Source: Polytrichum commune (taxonomy: Eukaryota > Streptophyta > Polytrichopsida > Polytrichales > Polytrichaceae). From it: DNA of 64,000 bases. The position numbers were made by a program, and so were the translations under genes. Of the stretch, positions 3,576 through 50,220 are shown piece by piece (position 1 is the first letter of the stretch; every line of letters starts with the position of its first letter). The notes under the pieces were generated by a model, which ran no database searches, was not told where the DNA came from, and saw only the letters and a program-made list of their open reading frames with translations. The stretch spans positions 40,103,501-40,167,500 of the forward strand of contig OX485805.1 in NCBI GenBank assembly GCA_950295325.1, in the 5' to 3' direction.

Positions 3576-3576
3576 A

Positions 3577-4285: not shown

Positions 4286-4299
4286 TACAGTCACTAAAT

Positions 4300-4455: not shown

Positions 4456-4597
4456 GCACTTGAATTCTTGAGTTCTAGATGTCCCGCGTTGTTTGATGAA
4501 ACACGTGTAAGCCGGTTTAAGAGGTAGGGCAAGGTAGTGCTGGTATGTCTCATGGGATATAATATAATTAAGTCACATAAAAGGTAGATTCATTAAA

Positions 4598-4876
4598 ACA
4601 TTCTTGAAATGGCATTCCTCTGACATGGGCCCTTGCCTTTTCCTACCAGACCACCTCTCTTGCCTCTGTCACCACAAAACCCATTGGACCATGCCAGTGC
4701 ATTTGTTAGGCCTTAAAAATTACATTTTGGGGACCTCAACCTCCATGGTCCCTCTGCCATTTTTTCCTTAGTGTAAACCGAAGTTGTCCCGGGACAACTT
4801 CAAGAGCCAATCAGGGCCAATCAGCTGCCTTGCAGAGCCCTGATCCAACTTCATGGTCCATAGTGTAAACCAACCC
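4598..4876. mobile_element. Partial copy of the 5162-6164 Harbinger-like family
   Basis: It matches 5899-6164 in the same orientation along its length, from the 'TCTGACATGGGCCCTTGC' block to the terminal 'ATGGTCCATAGTGTAAACC'. The right end, GTGTAAACCAACCC, abuts TTA (4877-4879). No left terminus was found upstream, so it is a truncated or strongly diverged copy. Confidence 0.65.
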
Positions 4877-5161
4877 TTAGTTTATCTAGATAAAATACCT
4901 AATATCCGACGATGGGCAATTGTAGACCCCTAATGCTTTTTGGTGCCCAACACAAACAATTTGACACAATCCCTAATATTTAATTGTACCATGTTATTAG
5001 CCACTGCAAACCCTAATTATAAATTTTGCCTCCTAGTGACATTCTCAATATAGGGTTACATTAACCGTTTCTTCATGTCTCATATATATGCGACCCACAT
5101 CGGTGGTCTTAGTTATACATGGCCGACATCACTATGAGTTACAATGATTCGTCCCATATAA

Positions 5162-6164
5162 GGGGCGGTTTACACTATGGACCATGAAGTCGTCCCACGT
5201 AAGAGGCCTATTTTGCGTGGGACGACTTCATGGGACGACTTCCATGGTCCGAGTTACTAAAATATTAGTTTTCATGGTTCATGGGCCCTTCACTAGGTGT
5301 AAACTGAATGTGGACCATGAAGAATGACCATGCACCAAAAAGTGGAGGTGCTGATTTTTTTAATAATAATAATAAATGCAGTTTTTGGAAAAAGTCAAGT
5401 TTGACCATTCTCAAGAGTTGATCTTCCAACCATTCCTTTTTTTCCTACTTCTTCCTTGCCTTCAAAAATTCCAACTTCAATAGTGGAAAGAGGAGGAGGA
5501 GGAGGAGGAAATGCACTCAAAGAAGATGGAAGCAAACTAGGTCTCTGTAGCATTTATGAAATTGAATAATGAGGTCTGAAAATTGGAGCTGCCATTTCTT
5601 GCATCCACTCAGAATTTTGTGACCACTCTCCTTGTGACTCTCTTTGTGATCCCCCATCACCGCCATAACCCTCCATTTTCTACCTCAAAAATATCACACA
5701 CTACTAGTTGAAGTACACCAAAACAGTGATGAAATGAACAAATACAAACAATCCATTTCTTGCAAAAAAACGGGTTTTTTCTACTATGCTTTCAACCATA
5801 ACGGATATATGTATTTACAGTGTTACAGCCTTGTAACTGTAGCCAAAGAAAATCATTAATTAAGTCGGGAAAAAAATCATTAAAAAATAAAAAATAAAAT
5901 CATTAAAACGACATTTTTCTGACATGGGCCCTTGCTGTTTTTCCAAGACCACCTCTTTTGCTTGTCCCAACAGAAAACCCGTTGGACCATGGCAGTGGAT
6001 AGAGTAGGCTTAAAAATATATATTTTGTGGACCTCAACCTCCGTGGTCACTCTGCCATTTTTTCCTTGGTGTAAACCCAAGTCGTCCCGGGACGACTTCA
6101 ACGTCCAATCACATCGCTTAGACGGCCGTGGGACGACTTCATGGTCCATAGTGTAAACCGCCCC
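5162..6164. mobile_element. Complete PIF/Harbinger-like non-autonomous element, 1003 bp
   Basis: A perfect 38-bp terminal inverted repeat, starting GGGGCGGTTTACACTATGG, bounds the element (5162-5199 and its reverse complement ending at 6164). TAA occurs immediately outside both ends (5159-5161 and 6165-6167), the three-base target duplication typical of PIF/Harbinger and Tourist elements. There is no transposase ORF, so it depends on an enzyme encoded elsewhere. Inside the left end a second inversion of the TIR sequence (5200-5260) gives a sub-terminal hairpin. The intact TIR suggests a fairly recent insertion. Confidence 0.85.
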
Positions 6165-6623
6165 TAAGTAACTTCCTAGTTGTTTTGCTTGTCATAAAAC
6201 CACAAATAGCTTCTAGTGAGTGGGCTACAATGATTCTCCCAATTAGTGCATGCTACGATTTGGAGTGTTATGACTATTTATTGAGAATATAATATTTTAG
6301 TAAGCAAAGTCATTGTGTTCTATTGAACAATCTGTTGAATTTTTGATAGTTAAAATTGAACTCATGAGTAAAGCGGTATTACATTACGTAACTCTGAGTA
6401 GTAATACGCACTAATTGGGATAATCAGTGTAGTCGAAGAATGTAAGACCCACCTTCCTTAGAGTTGGTGAAAAAAACATGGGTTAATATATTTCATGAAC
6501 CATCGTCTATCAATGGAATAGGTACACTAAATATCCCAATTAGTGAAGGTGGGAAAGTAGTGAAGGTGCTACTAAATTGGTTTTACTTTATGGATTAATG
6601 CCACCAAAAAGATCTAGGAAGCA

Positions 6624-7035
6624 TTGTTCATCTTGGCATTTGGCACTTGGCATGAAAGTTTCGGCACTTGGCATTGTTCTTCCTGGCACTTGGCATTGTT
6701 CACTAAAGTGCCGACACTTGGCGCTATTCAGTTAAAGTACCGGCACTTGGCACTTTCCAATGAAAGTATTAGCACTTGGCACTGTTCAATGAGAGTATTG
6801 GCACTTGGTACACTAATATATACCAAGTAGTGAGTGTGGGAAATTATTGAATGATATTGAATTCCTTTTATGCTATGAATTAGTGCCACCAAGAAATCTC
6901 AGGAAGCATTATTCATCTTGGCGCTTGCCACTATTTACTTAAATTATTGGCATCGGGCATGAAAGTATCAGCATTGGGGATGAAAGTATCAATGTTGGGC
7001 ATGAAAGTATCATCACTTGGTACTACTCACTGACA
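6624..7035. repeat. Minisatellite, unit ~33 bp (GGCACTTGGCA...)
   Basis: Direct imperfect units on the pattern GGCACTTGGCATTGTTCA + (A/T)GAAAGTA repeat about six times in 6635-6815. A degenerate second block (GGGCATGAAAGTATCA, 6935-7035) follows after ~110 bp. A 68-codon open frame crosses part of it but is just the translated repeat. Confidence 0.8.
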
Positions 7036-14429: not shown

Positions 14430-17400
14430 AATCCTTCCTCGAGACATGACAGAAAGAGAGCTAATGACTACAGTTAATGCCATGGCAAAAGGGAAAGCAC
14501 CAGGATATGATAGGGTGCCAATAGAAATTTTCCAGAGGTTATGGCCACCTATTAAGCAAGATTATTATCATATGATACTTAGAGGCATGGGAACAGGGGC
14601 ATTCTATGAAGGGGTCACTAAAGGCCTTATTAGGCTTATACCTAAGGAAGGGGATACAAACTATTTAAACTATTGGACACCGATTACCTTGCTCATGATA
14701 AGTTACAAAGTTTTTGCCAAAGCCCTGGAACTTAGGTTGCAACCAATTCTGTGAGATGTGCTTAATCCAGAGCAAACGGCATTCTTACCACTCCGGTTCA
14801 TCTTGGACAACATTGTGTTGACTCAAGAGTCTTTGCATTGGGCCAGATCATCTAAGCAATCTACGGTGTTCTTGAAACTAGATTTTTCTAAAGCATATGA
14901 TAAGGTTTAGTGGAGGTTTTTGTTTCCAGTAATGCAAAAGATGAAGATTAGTGGGACATACATCACTTGGGTCAAACTCATGTTTGAGAACACCTCAGCA
15001 GTGGTCAACCTTAATGATAACCTATGCAACAACTTTAAAGTCAAGAGAGGGGTAAGGCAAGGCTGTCCAATTGCCCCGTATCTTTTTCTCATTGTGGGAG
15101 AGGTGCTCACACACATAATCAAGAAAGCAGTAGCAAACGGGAGGTTGAAAGGAATTACCCTCCCGGGGGCGGGGGACAACAAAGCATATCCCCGTATGCA
15201 GATGACTCTTCGTTCATGGTTAAGGGGGACAAACAGTACATTGATGAGTTGGTTCACCTGCTCAAAGTCTTTAGTGCGCATTAGGATTGGAAATTAAGTG
15301 GGAGAAATCCTACGCATACTAGTTCGACAAGTACAAGCATAAACTGGAGTGGCTTGCAGGATACAACTGGCAATGGGCAAAGGAAGGAGATTTATCTAAG
15401 TTGTTGGGTACCCCGTTCGGACTTATTCTCCATACCCCGGATGTAGACCAGTTTCTCTATAACAAGATTTCTAAAAAATTGGACTACTAGAGTAAGATGA
15501 TGCTTTCTTTAGGAAGAGTGGTCATATGCAACCAAGTATTTCTCTCCACTCTGTGGTTCTTTGTCACGGTCTTGGGGGGGGGGGTCCAATAAGATTCTTA
15601 GGAAAATTAGAGGCGCAATCCGCAACTACTTGTGGTCAAGCAAGGAGCAACTCACTCGCACTAGGGTTAGCTGAAAGGATTGCTGCATGAAGAAGAAATA
15701 TGGCTAATTGGGACTAGTTGACCCTGAGGTAGCCAAAATCAATCTCCTCTACAAGTGGATTATTGAAGCAATTGAGCCTAGCAAATCTAACCTCTAATTG
15801 ATGCTTAGATATAGGTTGACAAGGTTTTATCCCCAAAGAGGACAAAGCTGAGGGGTCGGTCTAGACTGGTTCATCAACAAACAACATCAAAGTGTCACGA
15901 GGCCAAGGGTATGGGGGCACATTAGCAGTATGGAAAGTGATGGTGAAAGGCACCTATCAATTCCCCCCCCCCCCCCACACACACACACACAAGAATGGAA
16001 TTGCTTCACTCAAACATATGATGGTGAGATGGAATGGAACTCATCAATAAAGGTTTTAACTATGAAAAAGGTCGCACCCTTTATTGCAAGGGGATTCAAT
16101 GCATGGATGATATTTGGGATAGTGAGCAGAGGGATTTCCTTACTTGGGATAGAGCTCAGGAGGAATTTAGCCTCACACCAATGGAGATTGGCGATTGGAC
16201 CAAACTTACCGGTTAAATTGCGGAACAATGGAGACAAAAGCTGGAAGATGATTCAGATGCCACCCACCCTAGACAATGGATGGGGTTCTATGTGAGTGGA
16301 GAAGAGGATCATGTTTTTGTCATGAAATGTGTTACGTACCGACTTTTCACCACCTTGTATGCAATTACACAACCTCTCTATGCAATGCTTCACGGTCCAC
16401 ACTCACTCCCGTTGCCTTAGAGAATGGGAAAAACGGACAGGAGTATGGGTAGGTTTCTTTCATGAGGTTAAAATCATCCATACCACTAGAGGTCAGAAAA
16501 AGGAAGGAGAAAGGGAAGAAATCATTTTCTTCTATGGTAAAACTACTACACTTAATTGGGACCCGGATCGGTGGCGATGGATTGATTGATCTCGGTTCCT
16601 TAATTACACCACCAAGCTTGGTAGGTATTCAATTATTAATAGGAACTTGGGTACCACAAGCGTGGCAGACAAGTGGCAAGGCTATCTTCCCAGTAATTAT
16701 AGATATTACTAGTCTCGGGTCTGGGACTCATTCTAGGCCGGGAAGGAAGCCGCCTTCATGTGGTTCATTTGGCACAAGGTGGTGGCAGTCAATGAATGGA
16801 GGGCTCGCATCGCTCCAGCTTCCATTACCAAACAATGCCCCTTTTGTTTCCCTAACACAAGCGAATCCATCAAACATAAGTTCTAGGATTGCATTCAAGC
16901 TAGGAGGGCGTAGAGATGGGCCACTGACATTATGCATGAAATTTGTGGAGTTAGATTTGGCAACTATGACTGTTTTAAATAAAAGCAAGCCATCTTTGGG
17001 GAAAGGATTCTTAAGAAGTACAGGAAAAACATCAAAATTTGGCACCTCCTTAGAGGCATTACACTATGGTTCATTTGGATTGAGCATAATGATATAGTGT
17101 TCATTCACGAACACTGGCATGAATTGAAGGTCAAGCACCGCATTTGGGATGAACTCATCATCTATGCCAAGGCGGCTTGGTAACTGGTACTCAAACAAAT
17201 TAAGATTAGCAGCTTCTCCGTTGTGGCCATGCTCCAAGGGTTTGACAAAACATGGGAGTGAGGAATGTTCTTTGAAGGAGGAATAGTTTACATATTGAGT
17301 GCAATTGGAAGAGACAACGTAGGTAGGTTGAGTGGCAGTGGTGGCAGGTTTCTTTGTGGCTAGGGGGTTGTCCTTGGTAGGTGGGGTGGGGGGTGGCCCT

Positions 17401-18896: not shown

Positions 18897-21800
18897 TTAG
18901 CTCGTATGAAATGTGTAATACCAATAAAAATTTGATACTTGATGGGCATCGCAAGATGATAGAATCTTTGAACATGAGTTATTGTTTAGTTCAATGCAAT
19001 CCCGATATCATATTTCATACAAGCGTATATTTAGTGCCATACACAAAAGGTCTATGGACAAGTAGATAAACTACACATCCCCATCACACAAACCCAAATA
19101 TTCATAATGCACATGCAAGACCAAATCAATATTAAATACCTAACCTCCATAATTCTTAACCAAAACATTATTCAAATCCATAACAATGTTATGCGGACTG
19201 ACAATATTCTATAGAATATTCCCTTCTATTCCCACATTCAATCTGAATGTGGGAAATATCACATAATATTTTGTGAATATTTTCAATCCCACAAAACAAT
19301 GTTGTGGAAATGATAATGTTATGACGAAAGGAAACTAGCTAATAAACAAAACCTGGTCCCACCCCCAAGAAAAATTATAGACTACTGAAGCTAGATGATC
19401 CAACCCAACGGAGCAATCCTCTTGGAAGGGAGGCAATAAACCCTAAAATGATACTTGGTTCACTCACGTACATTGTAGGGAAAACATGCTCATGTTCACA
19501 TTGGTGTCATAATATTACTTAGCTATTTGGATGCGTTATGTGGCACTAAGTATCAATCAAGAATTATTCTTCTCTAATTTTGAGATTCCCCTTTTATGGG
19601 GAGCACTCTAATTGTAAACTATAGAATTTTCAACAAAGAACTTTAGATTCATAGTTTTTTTTTAATTGTAGTCTCTTTCTTTCCAAAGAGATCATCATCT
19701 AGCTGCGTAATAATGTTATGATAAATACACCAATGTTCACTTCTTCTTTTTGCATGCAAATCATTAAAATGGCTTCTTCTTTTTTGCTCTAAGTATGAAA
19801 TTATACACCCAAAGTTGTTTAGAGAAGGGTTTGAACACATGGTAATAAAGGCCAACTTTTAGAACCACGCATTCAAATCACCAAGTCTCTAGTACTTGTT
19901 GAGTAACCTTCAATTGGTACTAAATCAAGTTAGAAAGCAACTTTAGACTTTCCAACATTCATGTCATGTTTGTCGCTAGGATTTAATCTATGTAAACTCA
20001 AAACCAACTTGAACACTAGACCTAAAACCAATACTATGTACCATTATCATACATTTGGTACTTTTCCAAGCTCCCCCCAATTGTAGGATTATGATAGATT
20101 TTGTGTCATTTTGGGATAAGGTGTGTGGTCCTATTGTGGACATTTTGGAATGTGATTGGATAAGCCCCACATACCTTACATGTACCTTAGTCATGTCCAA
20201 AGTCAAAAGCACATAAAAGCAAATGCTTATAAGGATACTCTTCTCACGAGACTCACCCCCAGTAAGTTAGGTATTGGAGGCGAGCGAGTACCCCTAGGAG
20301 CATGTGGGTTCGGACCATATAAGGTATGTGGGCATTATGTGGTCACTCTTCTGAATTGGACACCTATTTGAGTGGTATATGGCAAGGCTTCTAGTGAAGA
20401 ATGGATGTCAAAAAGACAATTGTTATAATGAGATTGAACTAATTGTTCATATTATATAGACTATCATAGGTTTATGAGTTAACACAATTTTGGAGGGCTT
20501 GTGTGATCATCTAAAGAGAAAGAGAATCTTATCTTTCTCTTTTTATAACTTTTGCATCTCAACTCCAATTTTGAAACTTGAAATGTTAGTTTGCATGATT
20601 CGCTATTGCTAACTAGATGAAACAATTTTTGATTTGATCTAAAGGTCAAATACTATAGATTGGATGACATGACCCATACAATATTACATCTAAAATAGTC
20701 TAGGTGAAAAGTTTAGGTCATCTTTAATTTTTTTACTAATAAAGCAGGGTCTGTAATATTTGGAGGAACAAAGAATTTATGTGAGGTTCTTTGAATGCCT
20801 TTGGATTGGATGAGAAATTGCCTCAATTGACTAGAAGTCATTGAATTTAGATGTTGGTTATGCATGAACCTTAGATGTATTGAAGGTTGAATTATTTGTC
20901 ATGAAGGTAAAGTCTCCTCGTGACAAAACTAACATCAAGTGACAATGAAGTTTAATAACTTTTTATTTCCGTTTTCATGGTTTCTAATAACTTGTAACTT
21001 TTTATTCTTATATTTTTTTGATAAGAGCAACACACAAGCGGACTTAGGGCAAGGCGTACTTATTGGGGTTTGAAGGGTTGCGAGGGGGCTCCTTGTTGAA
21101 GTCTTGGGGAAGAGCCAAGTTTGAGAGAGAGGGAAAGAGAGAGAGATTCCAACATCATAGAGGGTTGCCAAGTAGATAATAAATGAAAGCATTAACTTAG
21201 TAATGATTTTGTCTTGTGTGCAAGCTTTGGGTGGTCATTAAGAGTTTCAAAATAGTGTTGCAACCAAGTACCATTCAATTTTGTTTGCATGTACCATTAA
21301 CATATTGTTGTTGCTTTGTTACGTTCAATGCAATTTATGTCAAAATTTCAAGATTTTGATGAATGGCACAATTTACACATCGAATTCAAGAAATTTAGAT
21401 GAATTACCCATCTTTAACTAACCCCCAACTGCATGTGGCTTACAAAAGTATATAGCTTGTTTGTCAAGGTTTGTGTGTAATCTCTTGGCATGAGTATGTT
21501 CAATAGTGTCATGAGATGTATGCTTATGTTACACCTTGGTTTACAAGATGACTTCAAATGTACACAAACGACACTTGACATAACTATGCTCAAGATTATC
21601 TTCCTCTTGCATACTAAAATAAAAGCATGTCACACTTGGCATCAGTATGCTCAAAAATATCCTCCCCTTGCATACTACATTAAATGTCATAAAGTAAACA
21701 ATTGTTTCATTAAAAATGTTACCGATGTTGATGAATAATATCATAATAACAACTAGCAAACGTGACACTTTGAGACTTCTAGACATCTAAGTTAGGCCCT

Positions 21801-26992: not shown

Positions 26993-28955
26993 ACCTTGAT
27001 AATGTCACACCCTCCGTTTCACCAAAAAGTGTGATATAAACAAGGTGTGCCATACTTGATAATGTCACATTTTGTACATAATGTGATATTATCAAAAAAT
27101 ATGTAGAAAATCAAAATATAATTACAATTTTTTTTTAAATAACAAATACGAGACTTCAATGTTTTTGAATGTAAAATCTAATTCAAAATTGTGAATAACA
27201 ATAAGAGCACATCATAATGTGTCATTGAGATCAGGTAAAGACCTCTCACTAGAGACAAAGAAGCTTCTAATGTCACATTGTTTTGTTGATGTTAAATGTG
27301 CAACACCAATTCTAATGAGTTTGTCATGGATTTTTTCCATTTCTAACAACTCATGAGTGCTAAAAATCTGAGAACCTTGGCTAGCCATAAAATTCAAAAC
27401 ATCTTTAGCATATTTTTGTGCATCGCTTAGCTTCACTACTTTAGACTCATCATCACTGCTATCAACAATCAATGGGTCCACTTCCATGGAATCAAGAACT
27501 TGTTCGCCATCTTGCACAAATTGCACAAGCTCCTCAGTAGAAAACTCCACCTCAAAATCATCTTCACCTTCCATGTTTATGTACTCCAAAGGACAAAGCT
27601 TTTCTACAGGCTTGCCTTCAACATCCAAACCCAAATTTAATGCGGCGATGAGTCTACCCAATTCCAAAGTTGCTTCCTCCATTTTCGACTTCATACGTTC
27701 ATCAAGATTGTTTATATCTGCATTCCACTCAGCAGGCAATATGGCGGACTTTCTCCAACAATTTCTAATGGTTTGATCATCTAATTCATGCCATGCCGCC
27801 ACACACCATAGCATAGCTTGAAATACATCAACATTCAATTTCCCCAAATCTTCATTTGAGTTGTTATCAATTTGTTGCAAAGTCCAGGCAACAAGCTTGC
27901 GCTTATAGCACATTTTGAATGCTGCAATCACTCCTTGATCCAAAGGCTGAACAACTGAAGTCACATTTGGTGGAAGGAACAAGACAGTGATATGGGAGAG
28001 TACAAAAGCATTAAACCCATCTATAACTTTCTTGACCTCACCATGAATATCATGGCTTCCTGCATTATCCATAATAATGCAAATCTTTCTGCCTTTCAAT
28101 GCCATTCTTCGGTTCTCACTCTTCACCCAATGTGTAAAAACATCATCATTCATCCAAGCTGAATTGTTAGAATAATAGTGTACTGTCCTATTTGGATCAA
28201 AATTCCGAGGAAAACATCTGGGACGCGCTGCTTTGTGAATGAAAACAAGCTTCAATCGCTCCTTCCCTGAGATATTAGTGCAAAGCCCCAATGTCACACG
28301 GTCCTTCTTTTTCTTATTTCCTTTCGCCTTCCCAATATTCAAAGTCTTATAAGGAGAGGCTCTATAATACAAACCTGTCTCATCAAAATTGAAGATGTCT
28401 TCTGGATCATATTTCTTCAATATGAATGGGATCTTTGCCATGGCCAATGCAACTCCAACTCCATCTGCATCTCCACTTTCTCCACGCAGATAATAACACT
28501 TTATTCCATGTCGAGTTTTGAAATTTTGCAACCACCCATTAGAAAGCTTGAATTCGGTATCAGATATGCCAAATGAATCCCTCAATTCCTTAGCCTTATG
28601 CATAATGACATCATCAGTTGCTACTCCCCTCCGTGCTCTAACTTGTCCAAACCATAAAAGCAAAGCTTTTTCAAGCTGAGGCCATTTTCCAACTCGAGCA
28701 TGTCGTACATTGCCTTCACGCACACATGTATCCACGTTCACCCACTTCTCTTTTGAACGAAGAATCTTGGAAATAGTGGTCCGATCCACAAGCTTGAATT
28801 TATGTTGATCCACCATATATTGTGCAAGTTCTTCATGTTTCAAACTTGGATGAGCTTTGTGGACTTCACAAATTTTCCTCTTATCAGACGCAGATAAATC
28901 CACTCGTTTGCGTGTGGAATTGCTTGCCATTAACAAGTGTGATATTATTAAGGTT
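26993..28955 (-). mobile_element. Candidate pogo/Tigger-type DNA transposon
   Basis: This region encloses the transposase at 27212-28930. The proposed ends are AACCTTGATAATGTCACAC (26993) and, inverted, AACCTTAATAATATCACAC (ending 28955). Related motifs occur at ~27028-27045 (reverse), 27053-27070 (forward) and 27079-27096 (reverse), the last two forming a hairpin. Repeated inverted sites next to a transposase suit binding sites for its paired HTH domains. The left end abuts TA, but the right end does not, so the borders are provisional. The start codon of the 572-codon reading lies only 26 bp inside the right end, a very short leader. Confidence 0.55.
27212..28930 (-). CDS. Pogo/Tigger-type (CENP-B-like) transposase, intact ORF
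   Basis: A 572-codon uninterrupted frame, starting at the ATG at 28930; an in-frame ATG at 28966 would add 12 residues but falls outside the proposed element. Residues ~10-63 form a psq/CENP-B N-terminal helix-turn-helix. Residues ~80-145 look like the Tc5/CENP-B-type second HTH, with NGWLQNFKTRHGI. The DDE_1 nuclease follows, with Asp183 in FNFDETGLYYRASP, Asp288 in CIIMDNAGSHD and Asp331 in LPPNVTSVVQPLDQGVIAAF, a complete acidic triad. The C-terminal ~130 residues are acidic (EGEDDFEVEF), with a final SDDES patch. Known family role: cut-and-paste transposition at TA sites; domesticated relatives bind DNA. Lack of stops in otherwise decayed DNA suggests recent activity or selection. Confidence in the family is high; present activity is unknown. 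Confidence 0.9.
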   Translation of the reverse strand: MASNSTRKRVDLSASDKRKICEVHKAHPSLKHEELAQYMVDQHKFKLVDRTTISKILRSKEKWVNVDTCVREGNVRHARVGKWPQLEKALLLWFGQVRARRGVATDDVIMHKAKELRDSFGISDTEFKLSNGWLQNFKTRHGIKCYYLRGESGDADGVGVALAMAKIPFILKKYDPEDIFNFDETGLYYRASPYKTLNIGKAKGNKKKKDRVTLGLCTNISGKERLKLVFIHKAARPRCFPRNFDPNRTVHYYSNNSAWMNDDVFTHWVKSENRRMALKGRKICIIMDNAGSHDIHGEVKKVIDGFNAFVLSHITVLFLPPNVTSVVQPLDQGVIAAFKMCYKRKLVAWTLQQIDNNSNEDLGKLNVDVFQAMLWCVAAWHELDDQTIRNCWRKSAILPAEWNADINNLDERMKSKMEEATLELGRLIAALNLGLDVEGKPVEKLCPLEYINMEGEDDFEVEFSTEELVQFVQDGEQVLDSMEVDPLIVDSSDDESKVVKLSDAQKYAKDVLNFMASQGSQIFSTHELLEMEKIHDKLIRIGVAHLTSTKQCDIRSFFVSSERSLPDLNDTL

Positions 28956-29689
28956 CCACTTAACATTTCAAAGTAAAAATTGTAGAAATGTTAGGAATGT
29001 TTAGGGCATTGGAAGTTTATTTGAGAATATAGTAGGTATATTCCATTATAAATCGTCAATATATGTGGAATATCCCATAAATATGCCCATTGCTTCATAG
29101 ATCCCTTGGAAGCACCCCTTCATCATAGGTGGATTGTATCTTTACAAGGGAGTGACCACCCTGTGTTATCAACCAAAACAACTCCACCAATGTCCAACAA
29201 GAACTAATAAAGATAGTGCTAATGTGTTGTTTTCAATTGGTGTTTAGCTCAAACATTATGGACAACCAACTTGTTGGAGTTATTTGGTTAGATTTTCTTG
29301 TTCCCCTCTCCAATTGATCATGTTTTCATATAGAATCTATAATATATGTTGCATTAGCACATATGTGATGAAACATCATAGAAATTAGACCGTGAACCGA
29401 TCTCTCCTTATGTGGTAGTGGTTATAGGAAGTGCATGTGTGTTCATTCTAATATGAGTATAGAGCACCCTCCCCCCTACTATGCTAAGTATTGAGTGTAA
29501 AGTAATAAATAAAATTTGATGACATAGTCCGATCTTTGCTAAAAATGTATTGATTATAGTGTTTGGTCTTAAATCCATACCTAACCAAATATCGGTCAAA
29601 TATAGACGTTCGATTAGGAAAAATTGTCAAATAACACTCTCATACCTTAAGCCTAGGTCTCATTGACACCAACCTTCAGTTGGGTGAAT

Positions 29690-33450: not shown

Positions 33451-35880
33451 CCAAATAGAGAAAGTGAATATGAAAGGCCCAGTTGCCTTATTTGAACTCC
33501 GTAAGAAAAAAATTATATAAGTCAAGAATTTCATTGGTGGATGATCCAAAACCAACACATGAGCTTGACATTAAGGTGTTTGACATTTGTTGAGTCAATG
33601 TGTGTTTATTTTGCAAAAAATTAGGGTGTTGATCTCGAGAAACCATAGCTTCTTGATCATGAAAGAATTCATGTTGGCCAGTATTACATGAGCTTCATGT
33701 AACCAAATTTTGGGTGAGATTTGGTTTTGGTACCCTCTACCTTAGGTGCGTTAGGCTACATACTTAAATACCAAACCCTAGTGGACACTATAGAAGATGC
33801 CGGATGGTATGTCACACTCATTGTCTTCACCTCATGCATCCGAGGAGACATCCACACAAATAGTATCACCAATGCTAAAATCCCCCTAATATCCATGCAT
33901 GCATGTATGCAACAAATTCACTTAATAGCCATCAAATATCTTACCTTACTCATGCTCAACAAACAAAAATTGGAAAGCCACCAAGAAGTTACAATATTTC
34001 CCTCCTCGGCAACCACCAAAAACCCCCACCACACGCACACCTAAACCTCAAGGATGAATCCTACAACATGAATCCTACAACATGAATCCTAATAATTAGC
34101 TCATATAAAGGGATAGACGACTTCTTGAGGTTAGCCCCGATAATCAAACCCAACACATGCTACAACAAGTATAAACACCCTGCCCTCATAACACCAACAC
34201 TTGAGGTACATAGAGCATCACACAAAAACTCATTTACCAATAAACATGCCAAGAAAAAAAAACATACATGGCCAACCCCCCCCCCCCCCCAACCCCTTTG
34301 TCTATGGTTACTAAGAGGGACCATCTCCGACATGACCGACAAGCGACAACAACACTTGTCCCATAGCCATGCTATGTAAATCTGTCTCGGGTGAGGTGTC
34401 CCTCATTCACGCCAACACTAAAGGTTGTGTATGTGTGTGTGTGTGTGTGTGTGGGGGGGGGGGGGGTGGGTGAGTGGGTGGCTACATTTATTTTGAGAAG
34501 CATAAACAAAGGATTGACTCACCTTGCCACCACTTCCTCCAAGTAGCCAATGTATTTTTGAGGTGTTCATAGTTGAGCCTTCAATGTTTTGCTTTGTAAG
34601 CCCATCATGGTGTATTTTTGAAAAAGTTTTTGCAATGTCTTGACATTTGACATGCAAATCTTGCATTAAAAAAATGCATGTCAATTCACGCACACAACTT
34701 AGAATTTGAGATGTAGTGTGACTTGTGGAGAAAAAAATCACACGCCAATTGACACACATAAAATTAAAGTGACATGCACTACTAGGCTTGTGACATTGAG
34801 GTGACATTTTAGAAGAAAATGTTGATATCCATTGACATTCATTTTTGACATTTCACATGACACTTTGGATTTGATTCATTTGAATTTGAGCATCAAATGA
34901 AATTTGTCAAACATACACACTAAAACGCATATTAAAAGGTGGAATGGGATGGAGTTTAATACATAATTGCTATTCTTAAAAAATATGTTCTTCATGGATT
35001 TATTGATGACATCAACATTTTGGTTTTGCTTCCTCAACATAGTTCCATATGTAAGGTATGCATGTGTTATTTGGCTTGTTTTTCTTGTTCTCTATCTTCT
35101 CTTGATAAACGTTATGTCTTCAAATTGATGTTGCATTTGCACACTTATGATGAAACATCAACAACAACAAAAAAGGACCTCCTTTGATATAGTTTTGGTT
35201 GTTGCAAGTGAAAGTTTGCTGATTCCTTAGATGAATATATAGTCCCCAACCCCTATAACAAAACAACAACAATGCATCAATGGTACATGCAAATAAAGTA
35301 GTATGGTGCATGGTGTGAGGCCAAACCACCCACCCTTATGCGTCGTAGTCCGGGTGGGGGCATGTAGCTCACATTCATTGCCTACAACATTCTATTTCTT
35401 CGACGTCATCAACCTCCACCGCATCAATATTGGCACACTGTTTTATTCCATAATAAGAGTACAAGCATTGAAAAATGCTCTTCTCTATCATTACCCTCTC
35501 CTTACACTCGCTCACAACCCCACTCACAATTTCCCACCTAAGGTCCACTCCCTAATGTCACCACCTTGCCCTTGGTGGCCCTCTAATTCCCCACTAATCT
35601 ATTTTCCTAGTTTTAACCCTTCGCATTTAGCCTAATTAACTAGTCCACACTATAATATAGTATTAATAATACCCATCCCCCACCCTAAGTCAACTTCAGT
35701 TTTGGTATTTAGTCCGGAATTCAACACTGTTGGGCTCGGGGCCCAGCCCGTCACTGCCCGTCACTAGTACATGTGTCATAGTTTCGGTGACCAGGGACCT
35801 TCTTCGGACCCAGGAGCTTCTCTCAGCTCCTTCGCAACCCCGCAATCGGCCTAGGGCTCACTCCGAGCTCGGAGCCTCAC
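33451..35880. other. Repeat-derived, gene-free stretch
   Basis: No supported gene. It contains a C homopolymer (34277-34290), a GT run passing into G (34427-34465) and GTGACATTGAGGTGACATTT sequence at 34770-34915. The last reappears inverted at 53708-53860 (AAATGTCACCTCAATGTCAC), so it is another dispersed family. Confidence 0.45.
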
Positions 35881-36300
35881 CTTCGACCTTCAATCCAGGA
35901 GCTTAGCTGCTCCAGCCCTCGCATCAACCTTCGACCTTCAATCCCAGGAGCTTAGCTGCTCCAGCCCTCAGATTAACCTTCGACCTTCAATCCCAGGAGC
36001 TTAGCTGCTCCAGCCCTCGCATTAACCTTCGACCTTCAATCCCAGGAGCTTAGCTGCTCCAGCCCTCGCATTAATCTTCGACCTTCAATCCCAGGAGCTT
36101 AGCTCTAGCCCTCGCATTAACCTTCGACCTTCAATCCCATGAGCTTAGCTGCTCCAGCCCTCACATCAACCTTCGACCTTCAATCCCAGGAGCTTAGCTG
36201 CTCCAACCCTTGCATTAATCTTCGACCTTCAATCCCAGGAGCTTAGCTTCTCCAACCCTCGCATTAACCTTCGACCTTCAATCCCAGGACCTTAGCTCCA
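35881..36300. repeat. Tandem array, ~53-bp unit, about 9 copies
   Basis: Each unit reads CTTCGACCTTCAATCCCAGG then AGCTTAGCTGCTCCAGCC then CTCGCATTAA. Units begin near 35882, 35928, 35981, 36034, 36076, 36121, 36171, 36223 and 36268, with lengths of about 45-53 bp owing to small deletions. Each unit contains GGAGC...GCTCC, able to form a small stem. The array sits in GC-richer DNA (35720-36560) unlike its surroundings. No long ORF persists across it. Confidence 0.85.
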
Positions 36301-38425
36301 GGACTTCAAAAGAGAGAGAGAAAGAGCTTTCTTCAGCGGCTGCTGCTCCTAACTACCTCGCAGCTGATCCATTCCGAAAATCCAGTGTTCTCTCCGCCTG
36401 CAAAGCTTGCCACTTACCTAATTCGAACAAGGCTACAACCTAATTCAATCAACCCCCGATCCCAATGTGGGCAGCTTCCACGCCCAATTCGGACACCTAT
36501 CCCAACCTTAAAGCCCCAAGCTCACATTCCCTTCCCGAATAGCAAAAGTACTAACTACCATCACTTTAACTAAATCTAATTAACACTAACCCTCTCTCAA
36601 CACACAAGTGACGTAAATCACTTGTTAACACAAAAACACACTAAACCCAAGGGTTACACTCTTTTTAGTTTTGAAATAGCAATCACAATAAAAAGGAACA
36701 AATCCTAATAACTTTTGAGGGTAACCACACATGTGGGCACCGTTTTGGGCTCACACATGGTTGCAACACTATCTTAAAACTCTTAATGACCACCCCAAGT
36801 GTGCACACATGACCAAATCATTAGTGAGTTAATGCTTCCAGTTACTATTTGCTTGGTGACCCTTTGTAATGTTGGAACCTCTCTCTCTCTCTCTCTCTCT
36901 CTCTAACAAACTCAACTATTCCCCAAGTCTTTGACAAACAACCCCCTCGTGGCCCCTCAAACCCTAGTAAGTTTGCCCTACCCTAAGTACCCTTGTAAGT
37001 TCTCCTTATAGAATAATATTTTTGTAATCTCTTATGAATCATGAAAACATAATTAAGAAGATGGAGGGTCTAAACCTCATTGATCACCTAATGTCAGATT
37101 TGTCACAAGGAGACTTTTCCTTAAAGCAAATAATTCAACCTCCAAAACATCTAAGGTCCATCCATGACCAACATCTAAATTCAATAACTTTTAGTCAATT
37201 GAGGCAATTTCTCATCCAATCCAAAGACATTCATTGAACCTCACATAACTTCTTCGTTCCTCCAGATATTACACCCTAATTTATTAGTAAAAAATAAATA
37301 TAAGCTATACTTTTCACCTAACCTATTTTAGATATAATATTGTATGGGTCATCTCATCAAAGCTATAGTATTTCCAAATTTGTATACATTTTGCTCTATT
37401 CAACTATAAGTACCCTATGTTTTTTCTCATGTGGTTTAATAAAAGTTCAACAATGACCTCCCCGTGGGATCCATTATCTTTCAAACATGTGTCTTTACTG
37501 TGTATGTTCTTAGACCCACACCTAACAACACAATACATCATTCAAATATAAGTCCAATCACAAAATTTAATTAATTGACACATGGATACCTTAGTATCCA
37601 TGTTGTCGCAACCCTTGCTAGCCCCCTAACAATCTTTCCAATTTTTGTTTCTAATAGAGGTTATGAGCGCTAACCCTTCGCATTCTGCCATGCTAATGGT
37701 TAGCTCCTCCTACCCCGGACCTTATAGTTCATAAGAGGGAAACCAATCCTCCTACTTTGCTTTCAGGACTCACCCCTTAATCGGTAACCAATTTCTAGAT
37801 GTGGACTTCCATCCATGTAAGTCCAATCCTATGTTGATCATCGCGTTGCCGGAGCAACACTATAACAACCCGAACCATACTAGGCAACTATGGCTTCACA
37901 TTGGGCCAATGCCCATGGAGGCCATGCCATTCAGCCTCGGGTGGGTGAGGCCACACCACCTCACTCATATAAGCCTCTAGGACTCTACGCGGGGCCCCTA
38001 CCCCACCGTCAAGAAACCTTTTGTCTCTCTACCAAGAGTTGGGGCCAAGTAAGTTAGACATTTTCCCTTAGCCGCTGGGCCTAGAAGCCCCCAGCAGCTT
38101 CAGACCATCATAACTTCCTTGTATGATGTTTGATGCTAACAAACAACCACTCCATGTTCATCTACGCTTCACGTAGATGCCGATGGACTCCTCACTTGTC
38201 CAATTCAGGCAAGTATTGAGGAAGTTATACCTGTTCGAACCTTGGCAGTCCCGGGAATCACTCCCAGGCACTGCTGTACCAGGGCGCTGTCGCCCCACTC
38301 AATTTGGCATAAGCTTAACTCTTAGCTCACACCTCCGATTAAGGTGATCTTGTGCATTCTAGAAACACCACGCCATGAGCTACGCATTGCTTATGGCTTT
38401 ACCCTCATGCCTCCTAGTCTCCATG
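36301..38425. other. Gene-free stretch, partly GC-rich
   Basis: It holds a (CT)n microsatellite at 36881-36903, an R1 fragment near 37490-37575, and a GC-richer block 37660-38340 of uncertain origin (possibly a degraded LTR retroelement). No paired LTR, primer-binding site or coding domain was identified. Confidence 0.35.
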
Positions 38426-39761
38426 GGCGGACGCTAAATACCCCCCCACGAACATTTCGGGGGGGGGGGGGGGGGGGGGCGATATTATGTCAGGGGCAGC
38501 CCCTGACATTTTTTCTGCACCCGACCGAAAACTGCTGCCCGCCCGCCCGATTTCGAAAAAACTAGTGTACTTGCATTTTTGAAGGCTACTTGTCCACAAA
38601 TCCCATATTGAGTGCACTTCATTTTCAAGGTCTCAAATCCAATATATATGTTCACTTCCATTGAGTAAATAAGCAATTGACTAGATTTCATTTTCAAAGT
38701 GAAACTGCCAATAAAGCATGTAATTAACTTGGAAGTCAAAAATATTACAAAATCCTCATTACCACTGAGGTTATCATTTTTGTCACTTACAATTGAAAGG
38801 GACTTTGTCATTCTAAAATGAAATTGAAATTTATGATTTTTTTTGTTTTTCATATTTTCATATTTTAATATAATATAGTTAATACCTTCTACTATCACAA
38901 AGTTTTCATATACATTTAAACTAGTTAAGTAAGATTGAATGCAACTAAGTCTAATATATTCCGATTAATCCTAATTAAGCCCAATTAAATCAGAAAATAT
39001 GCTTACCAAAATAATTAAGCCTAATTAATCATAAATTATATTTACTGGAGTCAATTCCATTTAAATCATGACTAATTCCAGTAAATACATTTTATAATTA
39101 ATTAGGGTCAATTAATTTGGTACGCATATTTTCTGATTTAATTGGGCTTGAATAGGATTAATTAGGGTTAATCAGAAATTATTAGACTTAGTTGCATTCA
39201 ATCTTACTTAACTAGTTCAAATGCGTATGAAAACTTTGTGACTGAAGAAGGTATTAAATATATATTAGATATTAGATATAGTATAGTATATAGTATATAG
39301 TATAGTATAGTATTATATATAATATATTAGAATACATTATATTATATGAAAAATAAAAAATCATAAATTTTAGTTTCATTTTAGAATGACAAAGTCCCTT
39401 TCAATTGTAAGTGACAAAAATGATAACCTCAGTGGTAATGAGGATTTTGTAATATTTTTGACTTCCAAGTTAATTACATGCTTTATTGATGGTTTCACTT
39501 TGAAAATGAAATCTAGTCAATTACTTATTTACTCAATGGAAGTGAACATATATATTGGATTTGAGATCTTGAAAATGAAGTGCACTCAATATGGGATTTG
39601 TGGACAAGTAGCCTTCAAAAATGCAAGTACACTAGTTTTTTCGAAATCAGGCGGGCGGGCAGCAGTTTTCGGTCGGGTGCAGAAAAAATGTCAGGGGTTG
39701 CCCTTGACAGAATATTCCCCCCCCGAAAAGTTCGTTGGGGGGGGGGTATTTAGCGTCTGCC
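38426..39761. mobile_element. 1.34-kb near-complete palindrome (fold-back element)
   Basis: Two arms of ~620-680 bp meet near 39062 with almost no loop. Outer ends: GGCGGACGCTAAATACCCC (38426) and, inverted, GGCAGACGCTAAATACCCC (ending 39761). Homology runs continuously: GTCAGGGG, GACCGAAAACTGCTGCCCGC, CGAAAAAACTAGTGTACTTG, the ATTACCACTGAGGTTATCAT block, and GTAAGATTGAATGCAAC near the centre. The right arm has a TA-rich expansion (39245-39340), and the left arm a 20-odd G run (38459-38479). Mirror ORFs on opposite strands (38485-38898 minus, 39386-39886 plus) give the same protein and have no known domain; they result from the symmetry. Long-TIR Mutator-like or Foldback-type elements look like this. 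A possible flanking pair is TCTCCATGGG / TCTCTGTGGG (two mismatches). Confidence 0.9.
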
Positions 39762-41545
39762 ATCTCTGTGGGTGGGAAGCGTTCTCAACGCCCGGGGCCC
39801 TCGCCCACACTAGGATCACTTGGGCCCTCTCACCAACGACGCCACAAGTCCCGGGTGTCACTCCGGGGTCCCCCTTGTGCCCATGATGTTTCGGGCACTC
39901 CTCATAGAGAGGTGTGCGACACATGTGCTTTACTGTAGAAGTTTGTTGACCCCTACATGTTAAGAAGCTTTTTTATTTTTCTTTTATTTTTTTTAAGACA
40001 ATTGAAATGCTTTACTTCAATGCCACAAACCAATACCAAGCCACCATGTGCTCGTTAAAGAGAGTGTGGGTTAAAAAGCATTTCTCACATAACAACACAT
40101 ATTTGTTGACTTTCTATAAAAGGATGGTTGGAAGGCTAAAACATAAAGAACAAAGTTGCCGATACATGTTGATCTAGAGATCACATCCATGCAAATGATC
40201 TCCTCATATACATGTGGAGAAACTCTATGTAGCCATTTTAGGATCACAATGAAGCCGAGGGGGGACATGGTGAAAGAATATCACATATGATTGAGTCCAA
40301 GTTTCATAAAGCATAATGAGTGCATGCATGTTTATGATGTGCCAAAAATTGAGAGTGGAAAATGGTTGATCCAAATAATTTAGTGCGAATCATATAAATG
40401 ACAATCATTCAAAGAATTTGTGTGTAAATTGTTATTGTGGCATTCATGATGAACATTAAGGTCTGTGTATCAAGTTTCACACAATTGTCATGTAATGTGG
40501 GTTTCTTATGAATTATGATGCTGTAAAGCATTTGAGATATATTTTGAGACACTAATATTCAAGCAATATTTTAGTTGCATGAATGACTTATATGAAGCTC
40601 ACCTACAATTATTGTTCTATGTGAAGTGACTTGTGAACATGGAAATCTCGTTTCCTAAAGATTTTATGGTTTTGTTGCATTTAACTAATGACAAGGGACT
40701 AACATCTCCTCAAATATTTGAACATGTTTGTGATGAAAAAGGATATAACCTTATAAAACATCTAATACAACCTTTACTCACAAACGTGTGTCAATTGTTG
40801 CCAGAGCAAGAATTGAACCAATATGAATCTATTCATGTTCCCTTCCACCAGATGAATGTTCATATCACCTACCGAGGGGGAGGAACATGAGGACGAATCA
40901 TGACAAGGGAAGGATGCAAACACTGATTACTATTGTGAATCTTATGCGTTTTTATTTATGACCTATTTGACCCTTAAATCAGACTTTGTAATCAAAGACC
41001 CTAAATTAATCTTGTGAATATGTTGTGAACTTAAGTTGGCCCATGAATTTAAAATGAATAAGCAACCAACCTATGGTGAATTTTTTTTCTTATTACCCCA
41101 TCGGTAGGTATTAAGAACCCAAACCCCCATCCACCCTTCCCTAATTTCTTATTGGAAGCACCCCCAAAAAATCACCATATTATGTGTCACGATCTGCTCA
41201 AATAAAACTTAGAAATATCAACAATGACATCAAATCTACTAGCTGGCCACTCAAAGTGTCCTGTGTACGCTAGAGCCATAATACAATGTTGTATTTTAAT
41301 GATCATAATAAATGACAATAAGCAACCAACAACACAAATCCGCAAAACTCCAGTCATTGGGCTTTACTACTATATATCATACATCTAGAGCACAGGCATA
41401 ACCGATTAATGAAGAGATTTTGCACCAAATCTGGAGAAGTATAAGACGGTGCAACTTTTTGCCGTGTAGGATGATAGAAATTAGGAGGACTGCATTTTTT
41501 TTGGTAAATTTATTCTTAAGTTGAAATTACTGTGAATTTTTTAAG
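39762..41545. other. Gene-free stretch with one dispersed repeat
   Basis: GC-rich sequence 39762-39915 continues the context interrupted by the palindrome. 40870-41125 is the partner of the repeat at 29690-29915. Elsewhere I see nothing definable; an 85-codon ORF at 40633-40890 has no recognisable domain. Confidence 0.4.
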
Positions 41546-46689: not shown

Positions 46690-49192
46690 CTACACAAATC
46701 CACGGTGGGAGAGCACCGTCACCGTCTATTCCAAAATTCATTGTCACCTCAACCGTTTACTTACAAACTAACTTGTTGGAAAAAGAAAGGGACCGACACC
46801 AACTACTCACAAGCCTATCTAGGTCTAGGTGAAGCCGATCTCACGGCCATGCCCATTTTTTCTTGGTGTTGAGTACCTTACGAGTACCGTTTTTACGGAG
46901 AGAGAGAGAGATAGAGATTTTCACATCTCACCCACACACAAATTTTGTGCAACTAGTGGGTAAACGAAAGAGATGATTCATCAACCCCAACCAAGGAATT
47001 TCGATGTCCGGCTTTCAATGTGTGGACGTGTTACTTTCATTTGCCCCTCTCCGGCCAAGTCGGCGAAAACCACTAAATGACAAAAACTTGAAGTGATTCC
47101 TTTTGTTTTCACACAGAAGCATGCATATATGTTTTTTAAAGATTGAGAATCGGTGGTTGACATAGTGTGCATGGATTCTAGTGATGGAGCTGAATTCCAT
47201 TTTCATTTTTTCATTTTTCATTTTTTATTTTTATATATTTTACAAACAAGAGCCCACCCACCGCAAGGTAGGTAGTAAACCCCACCATGCACCAAGGGGA
47301 TTCTTGAGCAGGGTAGGGCCAATAGGCTCAAATTCACATTGGATTGCATGATGTTGATTTTTCTTTTCTTTTCTTTGATTGTAGCCAAAGTTTTCATGTT
47401 TTGAAGGGGGGGTGGGGGGCTATGGTAAATCATGTCATCCCTCCCAAGTTTGTTGTTGATTATAATTCTATCTAATTTGGATTTCTCTATACTGAGTTGT
47501 TGTCTCTGGCAAACAAATACTATATGGTAAGTGGGCCTTGAATGGACAATTTTATCTTTGCACCACTTCTCTCGTAAAATATGAAACAAGCAGTAAGTGC
47601 CAAAGTGATTAGCTAATCCAAATGGTGCACGTAACTACTTTCGTCATAATTTTTACAACTTGCATGAATATCCTATTGATTGTCAAAGTGAAAATTCTAT
47701 AAGTTATTAAATGCTCATCTCTAGGTCCCCCTGATTATAATCAACGATAGTTAGCAACTTTAGAGCAGATAGTCTAATATGTTTTCAAAGCACGTCTTGT
47801 TGGTGGTGTCCATTCTTAGTTTCACACCCAACCATACACCACTCAAATATAGGTGTCCGTTTCAGATCATACACCAAATTAGGCACATCCACCTTACAAT
47901 AGACCACAGACGGGTGGTGACATAATTACCATTCCAAAGTTCCAAAATAATCAACCTGATCAACATTGGTATGTTGAGCGGATGGTGTGGAGATGACTTG
48001 GGACATTAATTCACATGCACGGGTGAAATGGACTGGGATGGCACGGGTCCAAACTAGTGCCACACAATGGTTTCTATGTGTTTTCACGTGTCATGAAACT
48101 TTGCCCCTAGTTTTCATAGTACAACATAGTTTACAAATGTAATTTTCTATTATGAATACACCAAATAGTCCTATCAGTGTAGGTGGAAAATTAGCACGAA
48201 AAAAATCAGCGTGGGGCCACATTGATTTTCTAGTCAAGGTGGACTTAATGTGGGTCCAAGACCCCGGGTCTTCCCCCAAGTCTTCATTCAGACCTTTGAC
48301 CAACACATTGAATACTAGTCATAGGACAAAAGTAGCACAAAATAAAATAATCACCCATACTAATTTTCTAGAAAAACAATCAATACAACCCACACTAATT
48401 TTCTACTAGAAAATGAGTGTGAGTTGACAATTAGTGTTGCTCACGTTAGTTTTTCAATAGAAGAATTAGTGTGGGCTCTAGAAAATTAATGCGGCCCACT
48501 ATTTAGTGTAGATTTGATGCACGTGGCTTTGTGTGGTGCCATGTCTGCAAGTTTGATGGCATTGAAAAGGTCGAGGATCGATTCACATAATTTTGGTTCT
48601 TGGCCCACAAGAAAATAATAGGGATGTGGGGATTTGAAAGCCAACACTGCAACTGAGAAGGACTGAGAACGACAGCACAATTAGTGTTTGTCAATTGGCA
48701 ATTTAGGGTTGAAATGTGATACCAAAAAGATATGTGTTACGATGAGATTGGACTACGTGCTTAAAATGCAAAAACCATTCAAGTTGCACTAGTGATGAGT
48801 AGTACCACGGGGAGAGTAAGAGAATATTCACTTTTGGACTCCCATAATTGTTGCACCCATATTCCAATTCTTTGCGATTCGCAATTGTTCACTAGATGCA
48901 ACAATTTCAGTACCCATCAATGTCAATGGAGTTGGAAGTGCCCACAATAAGGCCACATACCTTATATAGACCAATGCCGGAACTTTGTCTCATACTTGAA
49001 CCACTTAGGTAGTTGAGTCTGAAAGCAACACTTCAACCTTATTGCGGGTGAGAGTCTTCTATTAAATGAAGGAGTTGTCCCCCTTTTGTGGATCACTTCT
49101 TACACCACCTCGTTGAGTGGATAGATCCCCATTTAGCCGTTGTGATTGGCCAAAGTTGGTGCTTTTCTTAAAGAGTTCTTGCATCCTTCTTA
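46690..49192. other. Repeat-derived, gene-free stretch
   Basis: R1 copy at 47662-47905 (AATATCCTATTGATTGTC, AAAGTGAAAATTCTATAAG, AGGTCCCCCTGATTAT, CACACCCAACCATACACC). The block 48150-48500 has several CACACTAATTTTCTA motifs in both orientations (48390-48415 and 48440-48490) with no defined element ends. (GA)n lies at 46895-46917. No supported gene. Confidence 0.4.
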
Positions 49193-49587
49193 GAGCATCC
49201 TCAGTCGGTCTAGGTAAAGCTCACTGCAAACCAAGACCTATCTTGCTTAAAATTGCTCAAAATTTAGAGGGAGTGCACCAAATCTTGCTTAAAAATGGAC
49301 AGATCCTCCCACACTCCCTCTAAATGTCAAAAATTTGGAGGGAGTGTGGGAGGATCTTTCTATTTTAAAGCAAGATTTGGTGCACTCCCTCTAAATTTTG
49401 AAAATGTGGTGTTTTCAATGAGGGATTTCACCTACGTCAAATTTTTACAATTCTTTTTTCTTGAGAAATATCTCACGTTTATTTAGGTGTGCTTCTAATG
49501 ATGGTAATTTCAGTTTCTAATTTTAGGTCAGTCAAAAGATAGGTTTTGGTTTGCAGTGAGCTTTACCTAGACCGACTGAGGATGCTC
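49193..49587. mobile_element. Tourist-like MITE, 395 bp, with TTA duplication
   Basis: A terminal inverted repeat of about 50 bp starting GAGCATCCTCAGTCGGTC is bordered by TTA (49190-49192, 49588-49590). A second inverted repeat lies inside: 49268-49335 pairs with 49340-49402 (core GAGGGAGTGCACCAAATCTT and AAGATTTGGTGCACTCCCTC), so the DNA can form a cruciform. No ORF. TTA target plus GAGCATC termini fits a PIF/Harbinger-dependent MITE. Confidence 0.8.
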
Positions 49588-50220
49588 TTACATTGCTATT
49601 GTGAATGGCAAAAGTGTTGCTATTTTGTACTTTAAGCCACATACGATTGATCACTTTTAACAATGACTTACCCAATGGCACTATTAATGCACTCACTTGT
49701 TGACGACTTAAGAATAAAAAAACATGTGTCGCTAAAAGGAAGGTGTTACTTTAAGGCCTTAATACCTTACATGCATCCCTTGGTCTTACCACACGTTCTC
49801 TTCCACTTGATGGTTTCATAATCTAATAGGATAGTAGACTACATGTCCATATCATAGGATTTAGAAGCTTTTAGTGGAAGGCAAAAAATTGATGGTACGG
49901 CCAGTTCATTCCCACAATGAACATCAAAATAATGAAATCAAATATTGTATTAATCTAGTTGTGGAGTGTTAAAGAGTGATGTATCTCCACTCCCACATGC
50001 AAAGAGCCCCTATGACTATGGGAATCACCTCCGACATGAGACAATAATAGTCGGTCCATAGTTCAGATCTTATGAATTTGTGTCAATTCCCACTCTATTC
50101 CAAAGGATGAAGAAAACATCACAAGGATGAAGGATGAAAAAAAACAAGAGAAGTCGGACCTCCTGTGAATTAGCTATGGTTATTGGAAACACATGTTTGT
50201 TACTTCCTTCAACTACAACA

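Follow-up and report, generated by a model that had tools for sequence, protein, structure and literature searches.

A spacerless, non-coding Mutator-like element of Polytrichum commune with mirrored end changes and probable arm-to-arm copying in its outer arms

A palindrome of 1336 bp in a 64,000-nucleotide stretch of Polytrichum commune DNA (the whole stretch analysed, hereafter the window) is a non-autonomous Mutator-like element (MULE), of a known kind in a spacerless form. Very probably it is a non-coding MULE composed of two arms only, which inserted in a high-copy repeat and whose two ends were kept matched by end repair, while the mirroring of DNA from outside the element gave rise to two of its sub-families, types C and B.

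Structure of the palindrome

An earlier reading, made from the sequence alone, had described an inverted repeat with arms of more than 600 bp and almost no spacer; it was confirmed at 38426–39761, with 608 aligned positions and the arms, of 637 bp (left) and 699 bp (right), joined without any spacer at ATTTAAAT. The term 'near-perfect' used in that reading is somewhat generous. Identity extended to 572 of the 608 aligned positions, leaving 36 mismatches (23 transitions and 13 transversions) and eight gap events that amount to 94 columns. Half of the mismatches (18) fell in the outer arm at 38429–38864 and 18 in the inner arm at 38878–39038, and the longest gap-free perfect pairing, taken from the mismatch list, spanned 115 bp (38709–38823). 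As had also been noticed, the G run and the TA-rich tract are of unequal length in the two arms of the window copy. Read inward, the left and right termini are GGCGGACGCTAAATACC and GGCAGACGCTAAATACC, and their sole difference is of CpG type. The terminal 17-mer, with up to three mismatches, was found three times in the window against 0.01 expected, two of these being the element's own ends. The third, an end-like match at 54983 with two mismatches and no arm match adjoining, was rejected as a copy. The two longest reading frames of the arms matched no Pfam family at E values up to 1. The features of the element are:

38426..39062, + strand: left arm of the palindromic MULE (arm alignment; centre position)
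38426..38442, + strand: left terminus GGCGGACGCTAAATACC, type A end (end matches in the window, copies, genome)
38426..38870, + strand: outer left arm, domain with arm-to-arm copying in the family (family arm comparison)
38459..38479, + strand: G21 run, of a length that varies between arms and between copies (sequence)
38872..39060, + strand: inner left arm, span of 19 left/right diagnostic sites (family arm comparison)
39059..39066, no strand: palindrome centre ATTTAAAT (motif unchanged in 29 of 31 copies, with a single-base change in L019 and in L024)
39063..39761, - strand: right arm of the palindromic MULE (arm alignment)
39258..39347, no strand: TA-rich expansion of the right arm, at the boundary of outer and inner arm (tandem-repeat finding; arm alignment)
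39717..39724, - strand: C8 run, right-arm equivalent of the G run (sequence)
39745..39761, - strand: right terminus GGCAGACGCTAAATACC, one CpG-type change relative to the left end (end matches; arm alignment)

Copies in the genome

Copies were sought in the assembly to which the window belongs (64 contigs with a total of 407.8 Mb, seven of them large, 42–78 Mb). A 32-mer of the arm, with up to three mismatches, gave 161 forward and 169 reverse matches genome-wide (0 + 0 for the reversed control), which at two arms per copy corresponds to about 165 copies. The end, with up to one mismatch, gave 145 matches (78 + 67; control, 0 + 1), some of which do not belong to this palindrome. The sequence-only reading had named a lack of further genomic copies with these termini among the findings that would refute it; the 145 end matches and roughly 165 arm pairs show the opposite. 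Since the same palindrome is present at many loci with different flanks, it is not an assembly artefact of the window locus.

A genome search with the left arm gave 84 matches inside the best 40 scored of 2282 candidates. With their flanks, 39 further copies were taken, making 40 with the window copy; the sample is biased, because it is the best 40 of 2282 by likeness to the window's left arm and the same likeness served for orientation. Both ends were located by the criterion used in 31 of the 40. No end pair was found in L029, L033, L034, L036 and L041, and L028, L035, L051 and L053, with five mismatches in one end, were dropped by hand, L028 nonetheless having a target duplication matching at all nine bases. 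The 31 elements measured 1218–1600 bp. An extra set comprised eight elements (16 arms), the inner values being unusable in L080, L061 and L084, where the centre was misplaced. Among thirteen loci fetched for the end GGCGGACGTTAAATACC and for one short copy (L054–L066), only L061 and L062 proved to be two-ended copies of this kind. L068 and L071 are apparent half-elements with 9-bp matches, and a reading frame of L071 matches Plant_tran (PF04827).

In about ten listed copies, for example C1:62343429-62344353 and C2:24524300-24525221, the arm 32-mers spanned some 880–950 bp rather than 980–1110 or so, perhaps marking a shorter sub-type. Viral contigs held no exact match to the 17-bp end; six exact matches in bacterial or archaeal contigs were taken as chance, because no further arm match better than E 0.04 was found in those loci. 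The two end sequences did not occur in the full text of open-licence papers, and no account of this palindromic MULE family was found within those papers.

Target-site duplication and empty sites

Flanking duplications matched at all nine bases in 21 of the 31 two-ended copies and at eight or more in 25, counts for which ends were picked partly by flank match and one-base shifts were permitted; under a stricter count, with ends set by the terminus motifs of types A and A' (see below) alone and no shift, 12 of 23 matched at all nine. Full matches were also found in ten further copies or derivatives (L061, L067, L078, L079, L080, L081, L083, L085, L086 and L087), and fewer than eight bases matched in the window copy, in L022, L026, L030, L040 and L043, and in L084 of the extra set. 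The 12 copies whose flanks agreed fully at 9 bp had no full match at any other length between 3 and 13 bp (two of them were also full at 2 bp).

In the window copy, the pair GTCTCCATG/ATCTCTGTG agrees at six of nine bases and all its differences are transitions, as is the case for 0.07% of 9-mer pairs drawn at random from the window. CpG decay of a single ancestor, GTCTCCGTG, can account for all three differences, the third of them where the duplication abuts the terminal C of the element; this ancestor was derived and written down before the empty-site test. The joined flanks gave 41 listed matches to a high-copy repeat, of which 40 crossed the junction at 89–90% identity and the remaining one covered positions 1–218 at 79% identity. 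Eight empty sites were fetched out of 40 scored: seven read GTCTCCGTG and the eighth GTCTCAGTG. Insertion with a 9-bp duplication is therefore demonstrated directly, and GTCTCCATG/ATCTCTGTG is a decayed target duplication. The Mutator-like insertion hinted at in the sequence-only reading is thus borne out by duplications across the family and by the empty sites for the window copy; of the 10-bp flank pair on which the hint was based, the duplication exists, but its true length is 9 bp, and the proposed pair began one base late and ended two too far. Several copies of the host repeat are paired about 6 kb apart, which suggests that it is LTR-like. The features of the insertion site are:

38226..38425, no strand: host sequence on the left, high-copy repeat (joined-flank matches)
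38417..38425, + strand: left target-site duplication GTCTCCATG, ancestral GTCTCCGTG (seven of eight fetched empty sites)
39762..39770, + strand: right target-site duplication ATCTCTGTG (flank comparison; empty sites)
39771..39922, no strand: host sequence on the right, same high-copy repeat (query matched from 1 to 351–360 of 400, with the junction at 200)

Classification and hairpin RNA

The element has the target duplication expected of MULEs (8–11 bp, here 9 bp) and long terminal inverted repeats (TIRs), its two arms. The hAT, PIF/Harbinger and CACTA superfamilies, with duplications of 8, 3 and 3 bp, were rejected, 9 bp being the only length of 3–13 bp that fitted in the 12 full-match copies, and a Pack-MULE was rejected in view of the missing internal region and the arm frames without Pfam match. 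MITEs are usually smaller than about 800 bp; the palindrome is non-coding, as judged by the lack of a Pfam match, and of high copy number, and at 1336 bp (1218–1600 bp in the copies) exceeds that size. Its arms pair along their full length, as in foldback elements, but are not built of short tandem repeats, the TA-rich tract being the only such stretch reported within the element. The FARE elements of Arabidopsis are likewise plant foldback elements with long arms. Tm1, a Mutator/Foldback element of root-knot nematodes, likewise shows 9-bp duplications, long TIRs (composite in Tm1) and many non-coding copies, and its TIRs within one element are 93.15% identical on average; the Tm1 arms, however, consist largely of tandem repeats of about 14 bp and the ends are asymmetric, neither of which was seen here (available parts of PMC3169594). 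Within the best-listed subsets compared (type A ends at 87 positions, typed among the 100 listed of 145 end matches, and 142 matches to the MULE transposase domain PF10551 from the best 150 scored of 271 candidates), no PF10551 domain lay within 9 kb of a type A end, the nearest being at 9.1 kb, and among the matches listed no autonomous partner with the same ends was found.

The RNA of the palindrome is predicted to fold as one long hairpin of -923 kcal/mol, a value given without a shuffle control at that length. The palindrome might accordingly be explained as primarily an RNA-producing locus, whose read-through hairpin RNA would be cut by DCL into siRNAs that silence its own MULE family; long double-stranded RNA as a source of such siRNAs had been envisaged in the sequence-only reading. 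This fold, with its 115-bp perfect duplex, favours the explanation, and silencing of this kind has a proposed precedent in Mu killer and MuDR of maize: for Mu killer, with a partial inverted duplication of mudrA and two copies of TIRA, a hairpin RNA of about 4 kb is proposed in the part of PMC3440606 available. Both are inverted MULE sequences able to give hairpin RNA; Mu killer, however, is a rearranged MuDR with transposase sequence, whereas the palindrome belongs to a mobile family without known coding sequence (same source, in part). We consider the explanation doubtful. Other copies could form the same hairpin, so that nothing singles out the window copy, and a search of the window found no Rfam family at the gathering score; moreover, a hairpin locus accounts for neither the target duplications nor the copies and would therefore be at best an added effect of the transposon. 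As such, the hairpin may in addition contribute to the silencing of the MULE family through RNA.

End types and mirrored termini

A single palindrome is common to the 31 copies and carries four kinds of end: type A, that of the window copy (11 copies), type A' (GGAGGACGTTAAGTACC; nine), type C (four) and type B (seven). Type C begins with a different 133-bp terminus, GGCTAGGGTGAACCA...GAAATATAG, followed directly by the A' end; this arrangement is mirrored on both arms in all four copies, and the junction, GAAATATAG followed by GGAGGA, is identical on both arms in each. Type B has the type C outer terminus minus about 100 bp at one place, as deduced from arm lengths, and its joint was found on both arms in six of the seven copies, the right arm of L046 being unmatched by the script. 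L080 shows a third deletion, which its two arms share. In the arm tree, B falls within C on both sides, the support for the B+C clade being 0.993 for right and 0.976 for left arms. Changes of the terminus are thus mirrored on both arms across sub-families.

Ends of a putative donor were recognised in a search with the 133-bp terminus (best 40 scored of 231 candidates): in L072, L073, L074 and L075 this terminus continues as GACCT-type sequence, with no A' end at the point where type C has one. An A-type end follows in L073, 87 bp deeper into the sequence, and the likeness of L076 to the terminus is confined to roughly its first 130 bp. In L075, a decayed domain of a MULE transposase is located about 1.7 kb inward of the donor-type terminus. 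A MULE domain within 12 kb was met at two further donor-type positions, which form both ends of a single type C copy, and the domain is outside that copy. The right-hand end of the donor family was not found for L072 and L075. Since the donor-type ends are uninterrupted by A', type C would seem to stem from an A' insertion behind the nine-base GAAATATAG inside another MULE-like family, the outer side of which would then have been mirrored. L067 is a type C derivative of 4366 bp, with an exact duplication, AAGAAAAGG, and an internal reading frame of the DDE_Tnp_4 kind.

Recombination of two separate MULE-like copies in opposite orientation, in place of mirroring, could also be imagined as the origin of type C. 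Donor-type ends are indeed present in several places, and for Galileo the available parts of PMC3573991 include exchange between copies as one of the possible explanations. We judge this origin improbable: the junction is the same on both arms in all four type C copies, and under recombination another A' copy would have to have inserted at the very same base, oppositely oriented. Mirroring of outside sequence, the reading we prefer, has a counterpart in Galileo itself, a P-superfamily element of Drosophila mojavensis whose TIRs were likewise extended in mirror form from neighbouring sequence and for which TIR-to-TIR copying is proposed (PMC3573991, in part). Superfamily and host are different, however, and Galileo recruits internal sequence, whereas here the sequence comes from outside and changes the terminus (same source, in part); the available part of a further Galileo paper (PMC4168063) adds nothing on this point.

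Arm-to-arm copying

The 62 arms of the 31 copies were aligned and compared. For 60 arms the nearest neighbour was the same-side arm of another copy, and for two, both of L020, it was the own partner, so copying must have been partial or infrequent. All 19 sites diagnostic of left or right arms (80% threshold) lay within the inner 190 bp. Over the outer 420 columns, the distance between the left and right arms of one element was 0.0431, against 0.0544 when arms were shuffled within type, and none of 5000 shuffles was as low. By contrast, over the inner 192 columns the distances were 0.1362 and 0.1374, with 173 of 5000 shuffles as low, or 1010 of 5000 without L020. The contrast persisted after removal of gap and CpG-like columns (outer, 0 of 5000; inner, 545 of 5000). 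Taken by type, the outer result was reached in 0 (A), 1 (A'), 1 (B) and 192 (C) of 5000 shuffles, type C, with four copies, being weaker. Element-private states present on both own arms numbered 22 in the outer and two in the inner region, while mispaired outer arms shared 0.83 on average and four at most (300 draws); in the window copy, one private state is common to both arms. In the extra set, the own arm was nearer in the outer region than the mean of other arms in eight of eight elements, a mean taken over all types mixed, and ranked first in four of eight; three of the 16 arms (both of L061 and one of L080) were nearest to their own partner.

These results support arm-to-arm copying in the outer 420 or so columns only, with little or none in the inner 190 or so, although some signal is left in the inner arms (173 of 5000 with L020 included). 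Two causes had been advanced from the sequence for the likeness of the arms. Gene conversion between arms can be upheld for the outer arms, at the level of the family and through the shuffle tests and private states, and hardly or not at all for the inner ones. Youth finds no support: the arms of the window copy differ at 18 of the 19 inner diagnostic sites, which are common to the four sub-families, so that these differences were inherited and did not arise at the locus.

Left-type runs extend inward from the outermost diagnostic site in the right arms of L020, L047 and L018 (12, 3 and 2 sites, respectively). The left arm of L042 carries an internal patch at sites 4–6 that opposes this end polarity, and scattered single-site departures occur at diagnostic sites of other arms. 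The clearest tracts start on the outer side, at which a transposase would cut; towards the centre the signal weakens in the neighbourhood of the TA-rich tract. L020 (C1:53953203-53955403) is the only one of the 31 copies whose arms are mutually nearest, its right arm being left-type almost to the centre.

The same data bear on the proposal that the copies are young and free of arm copying, mirrored ends having come from re-duplication of a whole arm at the founding of each sub-family. The same-side nearest neighbours of 60 of the 62 arms would be expected under it, whole-arm re-duplication would likewise mirror a change of terminus, and L020 is near to having a fully re-duplicated arm. Nevertheless, it is very unlikely. 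The 19 diagnostic sites are kept in A, A', B and C, which means that complete re-duplication of an arm did not take place in any sub-family founder; no founder of the four types is perfectly palindromic to the centre, and private states occur on both outer arms at 22 against the 0.83 of mispaired arms. A local inverted duplication with no mobile history, through template switching, of which spacerless palindromes are a typical product, or through assembly error, would suit the spacerless form and the arm frames without Pfam match, but is refuted to near certainty by the approximately 165 copies, the 9-bp duplications and the empty sites.

Proposed mechanism and implications

A mechanism in which end repair keeps the arms alike would run as follows. 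Insertion would presumably be effected by a MULE transposase acting in trans, and a break at an element end could result from transposition or from failed excision. The broken end would be repaired by copying the opposite arm, which would keep the two ends matched; copy tracts would begin at the ends and mostly halt near the TA-rich tract, about 445 bp in, leaving the inner arms to diverge. If copying went on outward beyond an intact end, the DNA next to it would be mirrored as well. A type A' copy lying 133 bp inside a foreign MULE-like end may thereby have gained that end on both sides and become type C, a descendant of which would have lost about 100 bp from both arms to become type B, both types then spreading. 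The palindrome, its insertion and copies, the target duplications, the empty sites, the sub-families with different ends, the mirrored joints and the tract pattern are observed steps of this scheme, linked through a putative break, a putative repair and a presumed acting transposase.

The family keeps these steps side by side, with plain ends in A and A', donor-type ends in L072–L075, engulfed ends in C, trimmed ends in B and L080, and tracts with inner limits; its traces of arm-to-arm copying and end replacement are unusually clear. Both bear on how MULEs gain tandem or swapped ends. According to the available parts of PMC3310237, binding sites for the transposase and promoters reside in the long MULE ends, and Ferguson and Jiang (2012) state there that the origin of tandem or second TIRs is unclear. 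The plant MULEs with tandem long TIRs treated in that source (seen in part) resemble the present family in their MULE ends, the duplication outside the outer TIR, the internal TIR on each side and their many copies; in the family described here, however, there is no internal region, the two arms adjoining at the centre, and the joint, the donor-type ends and the arm copying suggest a route for the second TIR. As a tentative generalisation, which we hold to be possible without thinking it the likelier outcome, palindromic MULEs may renew or exchange their transposase-recognition ends by end-initiated foldback repair: a copy inserted close to a foreign MULE end would reproduce that end on its other arm and so gain mobility under a different transposase. 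If so, arm pairing would be a device to escape the loss of the original autonomous partner.

Other features of the window and of related loci

Elsewhere in the window, an uninterrupted frame of 592 amino acids at 27212–28990 (- strand) encodes a transposase of the pogo/Tigger type (DDE_1, 3.7e-37; HTH_Tnp_Tc5, 1.2e-13). Nested inverted repeats at 49192–49588, in which a pair of 69-nt arms (94% complementary) lies between a pair of 53-nt arms (98% complementary), are probably another hairpin element. A repeat of about 620 bp forms an inverted pair at 20648–21269 and 36755–37373 (about 79% alike overall), and a 49-bp tandem repeat of 8.6 copies occupies 35879–36297. Remnants of LINE type (zf-RVT and RVT_1, below cut-off) lie at 2401–3243 and 14911–15297, among direct repeats spaced 14.2–14.8 kb.

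Among the related loci, ferric-reductase single frames were found in L055 (3281–5557, - strand, 759 amino acids) and L054 (2127–4415, + strand, 763 amino acids), each between two inverted 1.45-kb elements that are 99.7% and 94.3% alike, respectively. The end GGCGGACGTTAAATACC in L054 and L055 lies within those 1.45-kb elements, and the arrangement may be either a composite mobile unit or a gene-cluster duplication. L077 contains at 2181–7001 three long frames in one register with single stops between them, the middle one matching a C-5 cytosine DNA methylase (1.3e-11, above cut-off).
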